From a virus, in IMG/VR virus record IMGVR_UViG_3300035703_000304, positions 1 through 32,025 of that record: a stretch of DNA of 32,025 nucleotides; one strand, given 5' to 3'. A model generated the notes under the pieces. The model saw only the letters and a program-made list of their open reading frames with translations. It made no database searches and was not told where the DNA came from. The translations under genes were made by a program, and so were the position numbers. Shown here in pieces: positions 10,543-28,366 of this stretch (the first letter of the stretch is position 1; the number at the start of each line of letters is the position of its first letter).

Positions 10543-10758
10543 TTAGTTTAACTTTGCTTTATCAATTGCCATCATTGCCATGATGTCTGCTTTTACACTA
10601 TCCTCTGCTGACTGAGCAACAGAGTACAACAACGTAACCATCACACCATTTGAGACAAGCTTATCAGTACTTATATCCATCAGTATATCACCATCATCAC
10701 TCCTTGTAAAGCGAACAGTAACAGTTAGTTCATCGATCTTAAGTGGATCGGTAATCAT
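10543..10758 (-). CDS. Hypothetical small protein (71 aa)
   Basis: 71 residues, starting at an ATG that overlaps the DNA polymerase stop (TGATG). The first half is predicted beta (LKIDELTVTVRFTRSDDGDILMDIS), the second helical (VTLLYSVAQSAEDSVKADIMAMMAIDKAKLN). No motif is recognised. Its position between polymerase and SSB suggests a replication accessory role, which is inference only. Confidence 0.75.
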   Translation of the reverse strand: MITDPLKIDELTVTVRFTRSDDGDILMDISTDKLVSNGVMVTLLYSVAQSAEDSVKADIMAMMAIDKAKLN

Positions 10759-12398
10759 CAGTGAGTTTCCTTCCAGTTATTACCTACTTTGTATTCCCCT
10801 GTCAAAGGACAACGTAACCCTAAGGTTACTCCAGCTTGCTCTATAGCGTCTACTGCAAGCTCACCAACCTTGTCGGCTAACTCAGAAGGACACTCTATCT
10901 GCCATTCATCATGGACGTTAGCAACAAACTTAGCAGGGATCTTAAGCCTCTTCAGTGAATCATGAAGATGGATAAGAGCCTGTTTCATACAGATCGCCCC
11001 AGCTCCTTGAAGAAGCGTATTAAGTGCTGCGTGTTCCGACCGTATCCATAGTCTACGACCATCCAATCCTGGCACAAACCCTTTCTCTGCATACTTTGCA
11101 ACTTTCTCTTTAAGCATTTTGAGAGCTGGCGTATTCTTAAGGAACGAGGCGATAAGCCTCTTACCAGCATCTGCGTTGCCTCCGACAATTGATCCGATCT
11201 TAGCTGGGCCAGCCCCGTATAGAAATGCGTAGATAAACGTCTTTGCTTGCGGTCTGGTTTGTAGACCAGCAGCGAGTTGGTTTTTGCTGTGGACATCCCC
11301 ATTGATCACCTCCTTTGTATAGTCTTCATCTTTCATGTAGTGAGCTAGCATCCTAAGTTCTAATCCTGAAGCATCACATCCTACTAAGACATTACCAGCA
11401 TCTACAGTCCACACTTGTCTGGATACATCACCATACTCTGCTGTCACTGCAGGAACCTGAGCCATGTTAGGGCTATGGTGTGTCATACGGCCTGTGACAG
11501 CACCATTAGTGATGACCTTACCATGAACCCTACCATCGTCAGCAACGTGCTCTAGCCACGATGAAGCCTGTGCAATACGCTTTTGTATCAGCAGATACTC
11601 AGCCATTGCCTTAGCCTCTGGATAGGGTAGCTTAGACAGGATAACCTCATCAACCATAGGCTTTCCAGTCTCAGTAAACTTCTCAGGCTTCCAGCCTAGC
11701 GATGTCAGTCTACGTCCTATCTGATCTCTAGAGCCAGGGTTAAATATTTCAACATGATCCTTTAGTTTCTTTCCTGTCTTTTCGCTAATCCTTTCTGTAA
11801 TGATGGGTGGAAATATTGATTGTAGATTCTCCTCTATGTTAGATAACTTAGACTGTAGCTCGGACACAAAAGCAGTACATAAAGGTATGTCTAACTTAAA
11901 ACCATTACGCTCTTGCTGTGCAACAATGAACTGTACCTTGTGCTCCAGTGCAATGCTTTGCGGTGAAAAGTCCTTCATATCTTCGCATAGTTTGCGGTGA
12001 AGATCACCAGTGAGGTGTACATCCTGGATACAGTAGTCAATCATTTGCTGTGTCAGTGCTGTAAAGTCTTGGAAGTCAATCTTGTGATTCCCTAATCTTT
12101 TCCCCCATGCTTCGAGACTGTGACCTCCTTCGATACTGGGATTCCATAGCCTCGACAGCACGAGCGTATCTGAGGCCTTCTTGAGTGGTATCGTAATGTT
12201 CCACAATCTCCGAAGGTGGTAACCGTCGAAGCTGATTAGATTGTGTCCTATCACTGTGTCGCAATCCTCTATAAGAGGCTTTAGTGTATTTGGATGAGTA
12301 TGACATACCACCTCACTTGTTGTCAGATCCTTCGTGACTACGCAGAAGATAACAGTCTGTTTCATGTCTGTTTCGATGTCCAGAACTAAGCTCTTCAT
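10758..12398 (-). CDS. polA: DNA polymerase I family (family A) with 3'-5' exonuclease domain
   Basis: 546 residues, compact compared with about 700 in T7. The exonuclease domain is complete: Asp7-x-Glu9 (LDIET), HNLISFD at 52-58 and YCIQDVHLT with Asp126. Polymerase motif A is GCDASGLELRM with Asp342; motif B (O helix) has Arg382, Lys386, Tyr390 and Tyr394-Gly395; motif C is VHDEW (His496, Asp497, Glu498). Tyr at the position equivalent to E. coli Phe762 is typical of T7-like polymerases. There is no 5' nuclease domain; that activity is encoded separately at 9454-10143. The start is the Met six residues before the catalytic DIE and overlaps a small upstream ORF. Confidence 0.96.
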   Translation of the reverse strand: MKSLVLDIETDMKQTVIFCVVTKDLTTSEVVCHTHPNTLKPLIEDCDTVIGHNLISFDGYHLRRLWNITIPLKKASDTLVLSRLWNPSIEGGHSLEAWGKRLGNHKIDFQDFTALTQQMIDYCIQDVHLTGDLHRKLCEDMKDFSPQSIALEHKVQFIVAQQERNGFKLDIPLCTAFVSELQSKLSNIEENLQSIFPPIITERISEKTGKKLKDHVEIFNPGSRDQIGRRLTSLGWKPEKFTETGKPMVDEVILSKLPYPEAKAMAEYLLIQKRIAQASSWLEHVADDGRVHGKVITNGAVTGRMTHHSPNMAQVPAVTAEYGDVSRQVWTVDAGNVLVGCDASGLELRMLAHYMKDEDYTKEVINGDVHSKNQLAAGLQTRPQAKTFIYAFLYGAGPAKIGSIVGGNADAGKRLIASFLKNTPALKMLKEKVAKYAEKGFVPGLDGRRLWIRSEHAALNTLLQGAGAICMKQALIHLHDSLKRLKIPAKFVANVHDEWQIECPSELADKVGELAVDAIEQAGVTLGLRCPLTGEYKVGNNWKETH

Positions 12399-20155: not shown

Positions 20156-20477
20156 AGTCAAACAAGACTTCAACACTATATGTAGTGGTTGTCAAACAGT
20201 AATGATTCTTAATTGTACATTGCAGTGCAGCATAGGGGGAGGGGGTCTGGTTAGTTATGGAAATGTTGTGGTGCTACCTAGCCTTAAAAAAAGCAAGAAT
20301 GGAAGTCTCTAAAGCCTAAGTAAACTATCTAATAAAAGGTAATAGAATCAATAGCTTAAATAGAAAAGCTCTGCGGAGCCTATGACACCATGTAAATGGA
20401 GTCCCGCTATAGCCTCTAAAGACTGTGCAATCTGTGCTGGATATGTTGTAATAACCCTACAGTAGTAGTCAAGGGTC

Positions 20478-20507
20478 TTTACAGCAATATCATTTGTATG
20501 CTACAAT
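20478..20507 (+). promoter_or_regulatory. Candidate extended -10 promoter for the head operon (shared motif, copy 1)
   Basis: TTTACA (20478-20483), 18-base spacer, TGC-TACAAT with extended -10 (TACAAT 20502-20507). The block GTCAAGGGTCTTTACAGCAA around the -35 is nearly repeated at the promoter before 25487. An inverted repeat TCTAC-TAT-GTAGA (20511-20523) covers the expected start site. Confidence 0.65.
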
Positions 20508-22895: not shown

Positions 22896-24830
22896 ATGAA
22901 ATTTGATTCAGATACAACACCACAGAATGCTCTTGTAGCTTATGTGATGCAGCATTGCGATGATTGGAGAAATCACCGTGATGAGAACTATCTAGATCGT
23001 TGGAATGAATATGAACGTCTTTGGCGTGGTATCTACGAAGAAGGTGATAAGACAAGAGCTTCTGAGAGATCTAAGCTGATATCCCCTGCCCTTCAGCAAG
23101 CCATTGACAATAAGACATCAGAGATTGTTGAAGCAGTATTCGGTAAAGGTCAGTTCTTTGATATTGTTGATGATCTTCAGGATCAAGACAAAACAGACGT
23201 AGGACTGATGAGAAACCAGCTACGTGAAGACTTTGACAAAGATAAGGTACGTAAGGCTATTACTCACATCGTTACCCTTGCAGAGGTCTATGGCACTGGT
23301 ATTGGTGAGTTGATTGTCCGAGAAGTAAAGGATAGTAGACCAGCAACACAGCCTTCTGCAGTGCCTGGACTACGTATGGTAGGTGTATCATCTACGAATC
23401 GTATCTCTGTACAGCTAAAGCCTATCAATCCACGTAACTTCCTTATTGATCCTAATGCTAGCACTGTTGATGAAGCCTTAGGCGTAGCTATTGAAGAGTA
23501 TGTCGGAAGACATTCAGTCATTAAAGCCATGGAAGATGGTGTCTATCGTAGGGTTTATGTCGGTACTGCAGCAGAAAACACAGACTTAGAGCCAACACAA
23601 GACATTACTTACTTCCAAGATGACAAGGTTCTATTGCTTCGATACTATGGTTTAGTACCCAAAGCATTGCTTGATGATCCTGATCAAATGATTGGCCCTG
23701 ATGAGGAGATGTATTCAGAGTTGGTAGAGGCTCTAGTGGTCATTGCTAATGGAGAATCACTGTTAAAAGCAGAGGTTAGTCCCTTCATGATGCAAGATAG
23801 ACCTGTTGTAGCCTACCAAGCTGACATTGTTCCTAATCGTTTCTGGGGTCGTGGGACAGGTGAGAAGGGCTATAACATGCAAAAGGCTACGGATGCACAG
23901 ATTCGTAGTCACGTTGACTCTTTAGGGCTTACAACAGCCCCTATGATGGCTATAGATGCTACGAGACTACCTCGTGGTGCTAAGTTTGAGGTACGTCCTG
24001 GTAAGACAATCCTTACCAATGGTGCTCCTAACGAGATTCTACAGCCTCTAAAGTTTGGTAATACTGATCCTGGTAACATCCAGACAGCACAATTGTTCGA
24101 AAAGATGCTTCTACAAGCTACAGGTACACTGGATTCAGCATCGTTACCTGGGCAAGTTGCTGGTGGAGACGCTGCCTCAGCAGGTTTAGCCATGGCTGTA
24201 GCCTCTTTGATTAAGAAAAACAAGAGAGCACTGACAAACTTCCAGGATGATTTCCTTATTCCTTTTGTAGAGAAGGCTGCATGGCGGTATATGCAGTTTG
24301 ATCCTGAGCGTTATCCTGTCCAAGACTTTAAGTTTATACCTACAGGTACAATGGGTATGATGGCTAGGGAGTTTGAGCAGTCTCAGATCATTGCATTAAT
24401 GTCTACATTAGGGCCAAACAGTCCTGTACTGCCTTTATTGCTGCAAAGTGTTGTAGAAAACTCTTCGTTACCCAACAGAGAGATGATTATGCAGCAGTTG
24501 ATGCAGATGTCACAGCCTGATCCAGCAGCACAGCAGGTTCAACAGCAGGCTGCACAGATCCAATTAGCGACAGCACAGGCTGATGTGCAGGAAAAGCAGG
24601 CTAGAGCACAGAAAGCTCAAGCAGAGGCTCAGAAAGCCATTGTAGAGGCTCAGTTGATGCCTGAGAAGCTAAAGGTTGATGTTCTTCAGGCAGCATCGAC
24701 GAACATTGATGACCCTAACAGGGAGTTCGAACGTCGAGTAAAGATCGCTGAATTAATGTTAAAAGAAAAAGACATTGATTCAAAGGTCAATATCGTCAGA
24801 GAACAAACCCGTCAGGACGCAATGAACTGA
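22896..24830 (+). CDS. Portal protein (podovirus-type)
   Basis: 644 residues following terL. Typical portal features are present: an N-terminal helical segment with DRWNEYERLWRGIY and SKLISPALQQAIDNKTSEIVEAVFG, the NPRNFLIDPNAS segment near 185-196, and a long C-terminal region (about 545-600) rich in Gln, Ala and Glu (QQVQQQAAQIQLATAQADVQ) that should form the coiled-coil barrel or crown. It forms the dodecameric ring at one vertex through which DNA passes and on which TerL docks. The last 19 bases overlap, in convergent direction, the antisense HNH gene. Length and style are like marine and freshwater podovirus portals. Confidence 0.93.
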   Translation: MKFDSDTTPQNALVAYVMQHCDDWRNHRDENYLDRWNEYERLWRGIYEEGDKTRASERSKLISPALQQAIDNKTSEIVEAVFGKGQFFDIVDDLQDQDKTDVGLMRNQLREDFDKDKVRKAITHIVTLAEVYGTGIGELIVREVKDSRPATQPSAVPGLRMVGVSSTNRISVQLKPINPRNFLIDPNASTVDEALGVAIEEYVGRHSVIKAMEDGVYRRVYVGTAAENTDLEPTQDITYFQDDKVLLLRYYGLVPKALLDDPDQMIGPDEEMYSELVEALVVIANGESLLKAEVSPFMMQDRPVVAYQADIVPNRFWGRGTGEKGYNMQKATDAQIRSHVDSLGLTTAPMMAIDATRLPRGAKFEVRPGKTILTNGAPNEILQPLKFGNTDPGNIQTAQLFEKMLLQATGTLDSASLPGQVAGGDAASAGLAMAVASLIKKNKRALTNFQDDFLIPFVEKAAWRYMQFDPERYPVQDFKFIPTGTMGMMAREFEQSQIIALMSTLGPNSPVLPLLLQSVVENSSLPNREMIMQQLMQMSQPDPAAQQVQQQAAQIQLATAQADVQEKQARAQKAQAEAQKAIVEAQLMPEKLKVDVLQAASTNIDDPNREFERRVKIAELMLKEKDIDSKVNIVREQTRQDAMN

Positions 24831-25396
24831 TTTAAGAAGTTAGCAATCTTTTGATGCTCTTCAGCAGTACCGTCATTCTTAATGCGGTTAGCTCTCCAAG
24901 ACATAATAACAACATTACCTTTGACATACCCTTTAGATGAGTCAATACGATCAAAACTAACTGAGTTTTCTTGTCTTTCTGATGCAAAGTAGTCTAGTTC
25001 GATACCTAGTACCGGACAATGTGTTGGAAAGACAATGTCGTTAAAGCTGATTGTCCACTCATGTTTGTAGTTAGAAGCCTTCTTACGTCTGAACTTCTCT
25101 CTTAATAGTTGATAAGAGTCTTGTTCTCGTATAGAGGCTTCTTCAGGGTAATGTCCCCACTTCCTTTTGTAGTTGTTTCTAAGAAGCTGTCGTCGCTGTG
25201 TTTGAGGACGTTGACTCTCATCCAACCGACCATTTAAGACTAACTTGCTAATAAGCTGATGTACTCGTTGTCTTGAAACATCACCGAGTTGTTTCTTAAT
25301 TTGTTCGGTTGACTTTCCTTCAATCACTAAGTCATAAACAAGTTGTAAGCGTTCTTCAGCACTTAAGTCAGTCTTAGCAAAGTGTAATGATTTCAT
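24812..25396 (-). CDS. Antisense HNH-type homing endonuclease with N-terminal HTH
   Basis: I choose ATG 25396 (194 residues; GGAG five bases upstream). The N-terminal third resembles a helix-turn-helix (LSAEERLQLVYDLVIEGKSTEQIKKQLGDVSRQRVHQLISKLVLNG). The C-terminal half has THCPVLGIELDYFAS, then SFDRIDSSKGYVKGNVVIMSWRANRIKNDG, a pattern seen in phage homing-type nucleases with an 'FDR-D-KGY-NV' block. It is the only minus-strand gene in the head operon, has its own promoter (25416-25444), and its 3' end overlaps the portal gene. A selfish insertion between portal and downstream genes is the simplest reading. Confidence 0.82.
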   Translation of the reverse strand: MKSLHFAKTDLSAEERLQLVYDLVIEGKSTEQIKKQLGDVSRQRVHQLISKLVLNGRLDESQRPQTQRRQLLRNNYKRKWGHYPEEASIREQDSYQLLREKFRRKKASNYKHEWTISFNDIVFPTHCPVLGIELDYFASERQENSVSFDRIDSSKGYVKGNVVIMSWRANRIKNDGTAEEHQKIANFLNQFIAS

Positions 25397-25415
25397 AGGC
25401 TCTCCTAAAACAATC

Positions 25416-25444
25416 ATTGTACCACGCTTCACTGACTAAGTCAA
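25416..25444 (-). promoter_or_regulatory. Promoter for the antisense HNH gene
   Basis: On the minus strand: TTGACT (25439-25444), exact 17-base spacer, extended TGG-TACAAT (25416-25421). It is back to back with the plus promoter at 25450. The transcript would have a leader of only about 10-15 bases containing the GGAG before ATG 25396. Confidence 0.7.
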
Positions 25445-25449
25445 GAGGC

Positions 25450-25479
25450 TTTACAGCAATAATTTAAGTGTGGTAAAAT
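25450..25479 (+). promoter_or_regulatory. Extended -10 promoter (shared motif, copy 2), near-leaderless
   Basis: TTTACA (25450-25455), 18-base spacer, TGG-TAAAAT (-10 at 25474-25479). The GTCAAGAGGCTTTACAGCAA block matches the promoter at 20478. The next ATG is at 25487, so the start site should fall at or within a base or two of the start codon. Confidence 0.7.
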
Positions 25480-25486
25480 AACAACA

Positions 25487-25729
25487 ATGGATATTAAATT
25501 ACAAAGTTACTATGAATCTAGATTCGATATGGTCTCATCTAAGGGATGGAAAGATCTTATCGATGATGTAAAGAAGATGCACGAGTCTTATGCGGACATA
25601 CGATCACTAGATTCAGAGAAAGTATTGTTTTTCAGAAAAGGTCAACTTGATATCCTAGATTGGCTCCTGACACTGAAAGAAGTATCAGAAAAAGTCTATG
25701 AGGATTTACAGAAAGATGATTTTATTTGA
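25487..25729 (+). CDS. Small head-region protein (80 aa)
   Basis: 80 residues from ATG 25487: MDIKLQSYYESRFDMVSSKG, WKDLIDDVKKMHESYADI, then FFRKGQLDILDWLLTLKEVSEKVYEDL. Short proteins with a 'GW-LI-D ... F-RGQLD-L-WL' pattern are common between portal and scaffold in podoviruses; the role is unknown. There is no SD because the promoter -10 lies directly upstream, so translation is probably leaderless. It overlaps the next gene by 14 bases. Confidence 0.75.
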   Translation: MDIKLQSYYESRFDMVSSKGWKDLIDDVKKMHESYADIRSLDSEKVLFFRKGQLDILDWLLTLKEVSEKVYEDLQKDDFI

Positions 25730-25952
25730 TTTCAAATGCAGTGCTGGTCATGTCAGCGAACACTTAGTACACCGTACTACAGAAAAAGTTACATGTCCAG
25801 TATGTCATACCGATGCAGTTAAACAGTTAGCAGCACCACGAAGCAAACTAGAAGGCATCACAGGAGATTTCCCTGGTGCTTATGCTAAATGGGAACGTAA
25901 CCATAGACAAGCATTGGATGTAGCAAAGTCTAAGTCCTACTACGAAGGATAA
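25716..25952 (+). CDS. Zinc-ribbon (FmdB-like) small protein (78 aa)
   Basis: I choose ATG 25716 (78 residues) because the typical family start is directly before the ribbon: MILFDFKCSAGHVSEHLVHR, then KVTCPVCHTDAVKQLAAPRS. The C-x-x-GH ... CPxC pattern is that of FmdB-type ribbons, often found as small phage proteins beside head genes. An in-frame ATG at 25698 is possible. The C-terminal half ends DFPGAYAKWERNHRQALDVAKSK. Role unknown; it lies between the 80-residue gene and the scaffold. Confidence 0.75.
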   Translation: MILFDFKCSAGHVSEHLVHRTTEKVTCPVCHTDAVKQLAAPRSKLEGITGDFPGAYAKWERNHRQALDVAKSKSYYEG

Positions 25953-26006
25953 CTTAGATTCCTTTTAATTCCTAACAATTGGGTTTATCCCGACTAGGAG
26001 AAGCAG

Positions 26007-26798
26007 ATGGCTGAATTTGTAGATTCTATTGATCAAGAAGAAGTACAGCAAGATGAATTTCAAGCTGAAGAAGTAAAGCAGCAACAACCTGAAGAGCAAC
26101 AAGCAGTGGCTCCAGAGATCCCTGACAAACTAAAGGGTAAATCGATGGACGATCTAATTAAGATGTACCAAGAGGCTGAAAAGCTCATTGGTCGTCAAGC
26201 TCAGGAGGTTGGTGAAGTTCGTAGGCTAGCCGATGAACTGATCAAGAGGCAAATCACTACCCCGCAAGCAGCAGCACCAGCCATTGAAGATGATGCTGAT
26301 TTTTTTGCCGATCCTGTTAAGGCTGTAAATAAAGCAGTAGCAACGCATCCAGCAATACAGCAAGCTCAAGTAGCTGCTGCACAAATGGCTCGTATGCAGA
26401 CTGCGAACAGGTTAGCCCAAACACATGCAGACTACACTCAAGTGATCGCTGATCCTGAGTTTGCTACTTGGGTTAATGAATCACCAGTACGTAAACGATT
26501 GTATATGCAGGCTGATCAACAGTTTGATTTTGATTCTGCTAATGAGTTGCTTAGTAACTTTAAAGCCTTGAAGAAGGTTCGTCAAGATACGGTTAAAGAA
26601 GCAGCAGCTCAAATGAAAGAAGAGAACTCTAAACAGCTACGAGCAGCTACAGTATCTACAGCAAGCAGTACAGGTGAAACAAGCAATAAAATTTATCGTC
26701 GAGCAGATCTTATTCGGCTCCAACTTACAGACCCTGAGCGATATATGCAGATGCAGCCTGAGATTATGGAGGCATACGCTTCAGGAAGGGTTCGTTAA
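26007..26798 (+). CDS. Putative scaffolding protein
   Basis: 263 residues with the composition of a scaffold: an acidic Gln/Glu-rich N-terminus (MAEFVDSIDQEEVQQDEFQA), a KLKGKSMDDLIKMYQEAEKLIGRQ helix (about 42-66) found in many phage scaffolds, an Ala/Gln-rich centre, and a basic C-terminal tail (RRADLIRLQLTDPERYMQMQ ... YASGRVR) that would bind capsid subunits. It directly precedes the major capsid gene. It guides prohead assembly and is not kept in the mature virion. A GGAG SD lies before ATG 26007. Confidence 0.85.
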   Translation: MAEFVDSIDQEEVQQDEFQAEEVKQQQPEEQQAVAPEIPDKLKGKSMDDLIKMYQEAEKLIGRQAQEVGEVRRLADELIKRQITTPQAAAPAIEDDADFFADPVKAVNKAVATHPAIQQAQVAAAQMARMQTANRLAQTHADYTQVIADPEFATWVNESPVRKRLYMQADQQFDFDSANELLSNFKALKKVRQDTVKEAAAQMKEENSKQLRAATVSTASSTGETSNKIYRRADLIRLQLTDPERYMQMQPEIMEAYASGRVR

Positions 26799-26820
26799 AC
26801 TTAATTGAAAGGTACTTAAA

Positions 26821-26892
26821 ATGGCTTCAGCAGCTTATCCTGGAGGTAGTTCCTCCATCGTTAACAAGACCAATGCGGATAAATTTATCCCT
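26821..26892 (+). CDS. Major capsid protein, exon 1 (residues 1-24)
   Basis: The exon encodes MASAAYPGGSSSIVNKTNAD then KFIP and ends with codon CCT at 26892. If unspliced, translation would stop two codons later at TAA 26899-26901, giving a 26-residue peptide. Joined to exon 2 (27485-28366) it gives KFIPEIWSDEIV, the N-terminal arm pattern common to this capsid family. The last six bases, ATCCCT, pair with the intron guide GGGGAT (26906-26911) with a U-G at the splice site. AAAGG stands 9 bases before the ATG. Confidence 0.85.
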
Positions 26893-27484
26893 AGCCTATA
26901 ATTTTGGGGATGTAAAACCTTCTCTGAATAACTGGGAAAGAACGTAAGGTGTCTTAACCAGAGGGAACACGACATTACCAACAATGCAGTTCACGCCTAG
27001 GAGGGTGTATGAAGCGATTAAGTTGGAAGTATATTGCAGGTTTGATTGATGGCGAAGGCTGTCTAGATGTTCAAGTAACAAACGGTATTTATGTCAGACC
27101 AAGAGTAAGAATAGGTATGGCAGTGAATGCAAAGATGATACTTGATATGATGCAAGTTAATCATGGTGGTTATTTATGTCACCGTGAAAGTAAGAATGGA
27201 AACTGGCAAGATTCTGTAAGTTGGGAACTTGTTGGTTACAGTCAAGTATGTCCTTTCTTACGAAATATTGCTAACCATCTATATATCAAACACGAACAAG
27301 CCAGGTTTCTCCTTTGGATGGAGAATAACTTAAAAGGCAAGCAGGTCGCTGATGAAGCAAGACAGCTTGTGATAACTGAGCTAAAAGCAATGAAGCGTGA
27401 CCCGCACAGACTAAGTGAGAAGGCACAGGAGAAAGTTTTAATACTTCTGTGATGCGATAGTCGGAGTATCTTTTTAGATACTGG
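26893..27484 (+). mobile_element. Group I self-splicing intron in the capsid gene
   Basis: 592 bases. P1: exon ATCCCT with intron GGGGAT (26906-26911), ending in the required U-G pair. P10: the first six bases of exon 2 (GAAATT) pair fully, with one G-U, to AATTTT (26900-26905), which is directly beside the P1 guide. The intron ends in G (27484) after a perfect hairpin AGTATC/GATACT (27465-27482), a good P9. A P3 candidate is ACCTTCT (26917-26923) with GGAGGGT (27000-27006). R-like GTTCACGCCTA (26989-26999) and S-like GATAGTCGG (27456-27464) are present, but their P7 pairing has a mismatch by eye. A LAGLIDADG gene lies in the loop between them. Confidence 0.9.
27009..27452 (+). CDS. Intron-encoded LAGLIDADG homing endonuclease
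   Basis: 147 residues from ATG 27009 behind AGGAGGG. The motif YIAGLIDGEG (8-17) is a single LAGLIDADG helix, so the enzyme should act as a homodimer and recognise a partly palindromic site. Downstream strands and helices (VRIGMAVNAKMILDMMQVNH ... FLRNIANHLYIKHEQARFLLWM) fit the family. It would cut intronless capsid genes near the 26892/27485 junction and so spread the intron. The SD lies in the proposed P3 helix, so translation may be limited while the intron is folded. The stop is 32 bases before the 3' splice site. Confidence 0.92.
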   Translation: MKRLSWKYIAGLIDGEGCLDVQVTNGIYVRPRVRIGMAVNAKMILDMMQVNHGGYLCHRESKNGNWQDSVSWELVGYSQVCPFLRNIANHLYIKHEQARFLLWMENNLKGKQVADEARQLVITELKAMKRDPHRLSEKAQEKVLILL

Positions 27485-28366
27485 GAAATTTGGTCAGATG
27501 AAATCGTTGCTTCTTACAAAAAAGCTCTTGTGATGGCTAACCTCATCAACAAGATGAGCATGAAAGGTAAGAAAGGCGATACCCTTCACATTCCAGTGCC
27601 CACCCGTGGCTCTGCATTCGCTAAAGCAGCTAACACTGCTGTTACGATTCAGGCTGATGTTGAGACTGAAGTTCAGGTGCTCTTGAACAAGCACTTCGAA
27701 TACAGCCGCTTCATCGAAGATATCGTCGAAGTTCAGGCTCTGTCCTCGCTTCGTCGTTTCTATACGGAAGATGCAGGCTATGCACTTGCTCGTCAAGTAG
27801 ATACCGATCTTATCCAACTTGGTCGTTCCGCTAACAACGGTGCTGGCACTGCTGCTTATGCTAACGCATACATCGGTGGTGATGGTAGCACTGCTTACAA
27901 CAGCGCATCGCCCAATGCTTCTGCATTGACCGACCAAGGTATTCGTCGTATTATCCAGCGTTTGGATGATAACGATGTTCCTATGACTGATCGTTATTTG
28001 GTTGTTCCTCCTTCCAGCCGTAACACGTTGATGGGTATCGACCGCTTCACCGAGCAGGCTTTCGTTGGTGAAACCGCTGGTGGCAACACCATCCGTAACG
28101 GCCAGATCGGTGATGTGTATGGCGTTAAAGTGTTTGTTACGCCTCAGTGTGACACCGCTACTGGTTCAGCACGTATTGCATTGATGTTCCACAAAGATGC
28201 AGCAGTGATGGCAGAACAAATGGGTGTTCGTTCGCAGACCCAATACAAGCAAGAGTACCTTGCTACATTGTTCACTAGCGATATGCTCTACGGTGTTTCT
28301 TTGCTCCGTAAGGGTGACCTTGCTAGCGTACCAACCTCGATGTTCCCCATCGCAGTACCTGCTTAA
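27485..28366 (+). CDS. Major capsid protein, exon 2 (residues 25-317)
   Basis: Exon 2 begins GAA ATT TGG (Glu-Ile-Trp) after the intron's last G and continues SDEIVASYKKALVMANLINK, then a beta-rich region with DTLHIPVPTRGSAF, VEVQALSSLRRFYTEDAGYALARQVDTDL, and a C-terminal domain with DRYLVVPPSSRNTLMG and GVKVFVTPQCD, the HK97-like layout of podovirus major capsid proteins. Total spliced length is 317 residues. The codons are more GC-rich and C-ending than in the neighbours, as expected for the most highly expressed gene. A GTG at 27530 is in frame but is not the natural start. A stem-loop follows the stop. Confidence 0.9.
   Translation, partial: EIWSDEIVASYKKALVMANLINKMSMKGKKGDTLHIPVPTRGSAFAKAANTAVTIQADVETEVQVLLNKHFEYSRFIEDIVEVQALSSLRRFYTEDAGYALARQVDTDLIQLGRSANNGAGTAAYANAYIGGDGSTAYNSASPNASALTDQGIRRIIQRLDDNDVPMTDRYLVVPPSSRNTLMGIDRFTEQAFVGETAGGNTIRNGQIGDVYGVKVFVTPQCDTATGSARIALMFHKDAAVMAEQMGVRSQTQYKQEYLATLFTSDMLYGVSLLRKGDLASVPTSMFPIAVPA

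Follow-up and report, generated by a model that had tools for sequence, protein, structure and literature searches.

A probably leaderless first cistron in a phage capsid operon and its leadered relatives

Introduction

Leaderless messages, whose criteria include translation outside the Shine-Dalgarno (SD) route by 70S binding and insensitivity to kasugamycin, are already known or predicted in phages. The lambda cI message is leaderless (PMC9031893), Cluster O mycobacteriophages carry the predicted leaderless promoters PL1, PR2 and PL2, one of which serves a gene within the structural operon (PMC4351075), gene 90 of mycobacteriophage Adephagia is a further known or predicted case (PMC11373665), and a paper on phage AR9 mentions in passing that phage transcripts are often leaderless. 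In Deinococcus-Thermus, a -10 motif a few bp from the open reading frame (ORF) drives leaderless genes, with spacing requirements, and the habit extends to about a third of the genes of D. radiodurans (PMC12340547). A different way of tying translation to a gene's own promoter is found in late genes of T4 (I-TevI, soc, e, mobE and others), which are gated by hairpins (PMC2988022).

The locus described here resembles lambda cI, Cluster O and Adephagia in having a promoter placed for transcription to start at or next to the start codon, and Cluster O also in that the gene belongs to a structural operon. It differs from all three in that one orthologous locus occurs in both leadered and leaderless forms behind a sigma70-type -35/-10 promoter; Cluster O and Adephagia, moreover, have mycobacterial hosts. 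As in Deinococcus-Thermus, the -10 box adjoins the ORF, but there the arrangement is a host-wide habit and here it concerns one gene. Among the literature matches listed, neither this locus nor any phage locus in both forms across related lineages was seen. A preliminary description of this DNA had called leaderless messages unusual in phage structural operons, which is fair, although the predicted Cluster O case (PMC4351075) means that the present one is not unique.

Genomic Context and Promoter

The window, that is, the whole stretch of 32,025 nucleotides analysed, is a 32-kb virus record (IMG/VR IMGVR_UViG_3300035703_000304) in which the capsid-side genes follow in the order portal, HNH (minus strand), 80-aa gene, zinc-ribbon, scaffold-like and capsid. 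The main features are:

22896..24830, plus strand: portal gene, upstream neighbour of the 80-aa gene and possible source of read-through
24812..25396, minus strand: free-standing HNH-type endonuclease gene between the portal and 80-aa genes (ATG 25396 chosen over the listed GTG 25432)
25416..25444, minus strand: divergent promoter-like site before the HNH gene, TTGACT-17-TACAAT with TG
25450..25455, plus strand: -35 box TTTACA, with an 18-nt spacer to the -10
25471..25479, plus strand: extended -10 (TG 25471-25472, G, TAAAAT 25474-25479), conserved in relatives
25480..25486, plus strand: discriminator AACAACA; predicted transcript 5' end A25486 (position 7, pyrimidine before) or A25487
25487..25729, plus strand: 80-aa gene, first cistron, no SD motif, between the portal and scaffold-like genes
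25716..25952, plus strand: zinc-ribbon protein gene, next cistron (start 25716 chosen over the listed 25698), weak Pfam match below cut-off

The 80-aa protein had no Pfam match, a single PHROG match (1 of 13 members, E 0.0045) and PDB matches no better than E 0.28-0.49. In the phage collection, neither the 80-aa protein nor, as DNA, positions 22896-27500 found a match, and the portal protein was 21-26% identical to 20 records, most of them phages of Roseobacter and Pelagibacter. The name "scaffold-like" is a label given in this analysis to a protein that matches a PHROG of unknown function. The N-terminal part of the HNH-type protein matched GcrA weakly, short of the Pfam cut-off, and an Rfam search of positions 24800-26100 gave no match. 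Naming a host was attempted with a genome-contig scan; of its 147 candidate stretches 1 was confirmed, a contig belonging to a metagenome bin of beta-proteobacteria, which was too weak for the purpose. Elsewhere in the window, a tRNA-Ser (gct) is predicted at 1417-1500 on the minus strand, antisense within an 864-aa ORF.

As the preliminary description had it, the -10 box ends at 25479 and the ATG occupies 25487-25489, a gap of 7 nt, with no SD motif 4-17 nt upstream; the predicted leader is 1 nt (5' end A25486) or 0 nt (A25487). Taken alone, the promoter in the window proves little, since promoter-like sites in a scan of 24-28 kb were at chance level (8 found, 8.5 +/- 2.4 expected), and the case therefore rests on comparison with relatives. 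The lack of an SD motif is by itself likewise a weak sign, because other likely genes of the window also lack one; examples are the capsid gene, taken from its listed start, and the DNA polymerase gene (10758-12398). Over the whole window, a TG-bearing promoter lay 5-9 nt from a start-like triplet in 3 of 1668 cases on the plus strand and in none of 1756 on the minus strand, and only 25487 of the three is a listed ORF start. The possibility that the promoter motif is repeated through the window was rejected: GTGTGGTAWAAT with at most two mismatches occurred at 4 sites (5.5 expected), with its only exact match at 25468. The divergent minus-strand site contains GCGTGGTACAAT, which resembles GTGTGGTAAAAT on the plus strand.

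Comparison with Related Phage Loci

Relatives were collected from IMG/VR by five protein scans and one motif scan, which yielded at least 320 loci with the 80-aa gene and at least 60 nt upstream (the window counted twice, repeat fetches of contigs included). The 320 loci collapse to 128 distinct regions, defined by the last 40 nt upstream and the first 25 residues, and the class counts below apply among the matches listed and are not population frequencies. An automatic rule found a promoter no more than 170 nt before the 80-aa gene, at the positions described, in 107 of the 128 regions, and its conservation reached down to 55-59% portal identity. The comparison of promoter-to-ATG distance in relatives, which had been proposed as a check, gave a bimodal result: the -10 box and the start are 6-9 nt apart in 46 of the 128 regions (abutting) and 32-66 nt apart in 61 (leadered). 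The rest comprise eight regions with a gap of 1 nt and one with the start inside the -10 (together "overlap"), and 12 with no recognised promoter, one of which (L079) has an extended -10 without a -35. Assignment was by hand, from a -10 without a consensus -35, in 5 of the 46 abutting and 4 of the 9 overlap regions. At the level of single loci, a start 1 nt after TATAAT was seen in L199, L201, L202, L203, L205, L207, L210, L211, L217, L220 and L230, and a start codon inside TATAAT in L034/L250. RNA from the promoter itself would miss the start codon in the nine overlap regions, because the start lies 1 nt from the -10 or inside it.

The SD motif divides along the same lines. It is absent from the window's region, in agreement with the earlier reading, as it is from every abutting region (0/46) and from the overlap regions (0/9), and it is present in 58 of the 61 leadered and 8 of the 12 promoterless regions; three of the four promoterless regions without it start by an ATGA overlap with an upstream open frame. 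Omitting the six regions fetched only by the motif scan left 40 of 122 regions abutting, again none with an SD motif. Predicted anti-SD pairing energies had medians of -3.9 kcal/mol in abutting and -5.4 kcal/mol in leadered regions, the window's own value of -5.0 kcal/mol falling inside the leadered range. In the window's lineage (MDIK, MDVK, MDEK, MEEK, MDVI, MDVF and MDTT types), the gap is 6 or 7 nt in 16 of 16 distinct regions, 6 of which were fetched by the motif alone; the related MNSK type contributed three regions that lack a promoter at this place and in which the gene starts by ATGA overlap. Among the remaining ORFs of these loci, counted from 90 aa upwards and read from their first ATG, the abutting arrangement occurred at 1 of 1057 starts, by a rule that passes 38 of the 46 abutting regions, and the sole case (L135) was itself motif-fetched. 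As a side observation, TGTGGTAWAATNACAACATG also opens unrelated phage genes (L135/L142, L136/L138/L169 and L147/L149), one of them GIY-YIG-like by eye; in so large a collection, the motif may occur at close to chance frequency. The gene preceding the 80-aa gene also varies: in some relatives (L107 upstream of 3284; L017 upstream of 4001) it is collagen-like (by eye) or a different, ATGA-coupled gene.

In sigma70 promoters, the usual transcription start is near position 7 after the -10 box. A pyrimidine at position 6 followed by A at position 7 is present in 44 of the 46 abutting regions, and in those 44 the pair predicts a 5' end no more than 2 nt (0-2 nt) away from the AUG: with a gap of 6 it coincides with the A of the ATG, and in the window it precedes the ATG by 1 nt. 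The "probable leaderless mRNA" of the preliminary description is thus well supported by the comparison, with the refinement that a leader of 1 nt is probable for the window. Position 7 is also A in 49 of the 61 leadered relatives. The start codon is ATG in all 46 abutting regions, and codons 2-15 evolve as coding sequence, with 80, 74 and 378 differences at codon positions 1, 2 and 3 in the second leaderless lineage and a weaker signal (28, 16 and 36) in the window's lineage. Use of a start codon further downstream, one of the outcomes that would have counted against the original reading, is disfavoured by this pattern and by the internal Met, which is missing in part of the window's lineage (FDLFS and FDLIS types).

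The HNH gene offers a view of the promoter under disturbance. Within the window's lineage, TTTACA-18 occurs in each of the 50 loci that show an HNH match upstream and TTGACA-17 in each of the 59 that show none, counts that include repeat fetches of contigs and leave aside seven further loci too short to tell; the two forms are carried by 8 and 8 distinct regions. Outside the window's lineage, an HNH match lies upstream in three loci, with weaker -35 boxes. In the pair L012/L013, whose right junction was read by eye since the aligner misplaced it, the insert stands at the site of the -35 and leaves both GTGTGGTAAAAT and its spacing to the ATG unchanged. On this comparison, the HNH gene has replaced the -35 box and kept the -10 and its spacing to the ATG. 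Free-standing endonucleases of T4 likewise displaced transcription starts, and promoters for the downstream genes now lie inside them (PMC2988022). A 23-nt repeat, AGTCAAGRGNCTTTACAGCAATA, stands in the window at 20467-20489, ahead of the late operon, and at 25439-25461, in the HNH flank; it was found in 0 of 100 shuffles, with a pattern that was itself written from the two sites. A promoter-like TTTACA-18-TACAAT is present at 20478-20507.

On the portal tree (115 rows, quick method, no bootstrap, unrooted), the abutting state appears at three positions: the window's lineage (12 rows), an MLPELQQYYED/MSPELQQYYED-type lineage (33 rows, eight of them overlap), and three rows near leadered relatives. 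Placing the window's and the second lineage in one clade was rejected by the AU test (p 0.00044; group chosen after the tree was seen), so this phage family has probably undergone more than one change of the abutting state. The minimum number of label changes on the tree was four without the overlap rows and seven with them counted as other; gain and loss are indistinguishable because the tree is unrooted. An independent-pairs test had only four pairs, which puts 0.05 out of reach. Directly behind the -10 of the leadered locus L064 stands TACAACAT, which resembles the TACAACATGG of the window's lineage; the likeness is suggestive, as if a leader had been cut out.

Predicted RNA Structure in Leadered Relatives

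One set of 28 distinct leadered regions, group D, stands out by its predicted folding. In read-through RNA of these regions, the -35 and -10 sequences are predicted to pair with the leader up to the SD, and folds better than those of shuffles (z < -3, 50 shuffles) were obtained for 20 of the 61 leadered regions, all in group D. A long palindrome spans promoter and leader in several group D loci, among them L071, L084, L089 and L092. With the structure taken from single folds of the same sequences, double changes were counted in 48 cells, compared with 29.4 for shuffles, none of which (0 of 500) reached that number; the covariation score of 0.154 exceeded those of shuffles (0.113) and of slid controls (0.061 or less). 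The numbers of pairs showing a double change (9 vs 7.9) and of pair types (21 vs 20.9) were not above shuffles, and RNAalifold on a MAFFT alignment retained just five pairs, none with double changes. The asymmetry of G.U over A.C cells, considered as a sign of selection at the RNA level, failed (29 G.U, 40 A.C). For most rows of group D, minimum-energy folding pairs the SD to nearly the same extent (mostly 60%) whether the RNA reads through or starts at the promoter. Opening the start region is dearer in read-through RNA, by more than 0.5 kcal/mol, in 27 of the 28 group D regions and 10 of the 33 other leadered regions, with group D medians of 7.4 for read-through and 5.2 for promoter-started RNA.

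The palindrome may in part also be readable as a face-to-face promoter on the minus strand, for which a score of at least 10 was reached in 17 of the 61 leadered regions; as its sole cause such a promoter was rejected for L071, L066 and L089, where the hairpin is strong and no such promoter was found, but it may apply to the other regions. What group D shares with T4-type gating is a predicted read-through fold that runs up to the SD and an own-promoter RNA that lacks the 5' arm; the difference is that the 5' arm in group D is the sigma70-type promoter itself, -35 and -10 included. No such gate is found in the window, where positions 25440-25545 fold more weakly than shuffles (z +1.35) and contain no SD motif.

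Discussion

We consider it likely, judging from the sequence comparison, that the 80-aa gene is a leaderless cistron transcribed from the abutting promoter, in an arrangement that has been kept and a state that has changed more than once. The promoter at 25450-25479 would start a message with its 5' end 0-1 nt from the AUG, the ribosome would read the 80-aa gene from the 5' end of its own message during infection, and the message would probably continue through the zinc-ribbon, scaffold-like and capsid genes. Such a start may, as the preliminary description proposed, favour 70S ribosomes late in infection. A terminator-like site occurs at 26508-26526 within the scaffold-like gene (two sites in the 24-28 kb scan, 2.8 expected). 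The zinc-ribbon start overlaps the end of the 80-aa ORF, within which an SD-like GAGGA is located at 25700-25704, so this second cistron may be read by ordinary initiation; GAGGA occurs in the final 45 nt of the 80-aa ORF in 45 of the 46 abutting regions and in 85 of the 123 regions examined. The abutting arrangement has been kept over wide divergence and through the HNH insertion.

The most serious alternative assigns the promoter to the downstream genes alone, with the 80-aa gene translated instead from RNA that reads through from the terminase-portal operon. It draws on the same GAGGA motif before the zinc-ribbon gene, on the finding of no terminator-like site on the plus strand between portal and 80-aa gene in the 24-28 kb scan, and on the nine overlap regions, whose starts lie where the promoter's RNA cannot include them. 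It does not explain, however, why the gap should stay mostly at 6-8 nt, even where the HNH gene has inserted, and the gene, where promoterless, mostly has an SD motif (8/12) or an ATGA overlap (3/12), whereas the abutting form never has an SD. Read-through as the only source, which the preliminary description had named as a refuting outcome, is unlikely in our view because the abutting promoter is conserved and the SD is absent wherever the promoter abuts but present in 58 of the 61 leadered regions.

We give still less weight to the host polymerase starting elsewhere, for example several nucleotides upstream, and leaving a short leader. The start-site preference used here follows sigma70 habit, which may not be that of the host, and gaps of 8-9 nt occur in 7 of the 46 abutting regions, but the pyrimidine-A pair and the A at position 7 of leadered relatives speak against it, and even a start at position 5 would leave a leader of just 3 nt in the window. 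That the promoter match is a chance or decayed site would agree with the chance-level scan of 24-28 kb; the recovery of the promoter by the automatic rule and the conservation of box and spacing across lineages make this highly improbable. A leaderless cistron read from its own abutting promoter accordingly stays the preferred reading of the comparison.

More tentatively, and as a model with doubtful standing, the two arrangements might be convergent designs for licensing by the own promoter, in which the first cistron of the capsid operon would be translatable only from RNA started at that promoter. In group D, the hairpin would have the promoter as its 5' arm, with a 3' arm running into the SD of read-through RNA; in the leaderless lineages, which lack an SD, only a message beginning at the AUG would be read. 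The nine overlap regions and the leadered groups without a hairpin do not fit this model. If it is true, leaderlessness would act as a filter against translating read-through RNA. Related phages that carry this gene in one form or the other, with one kind of promoter before it, provide a natural test of switching between leadered and leaderless messages, and the switch, its number of origins and its cost would be measurable by swapping natural leaders.
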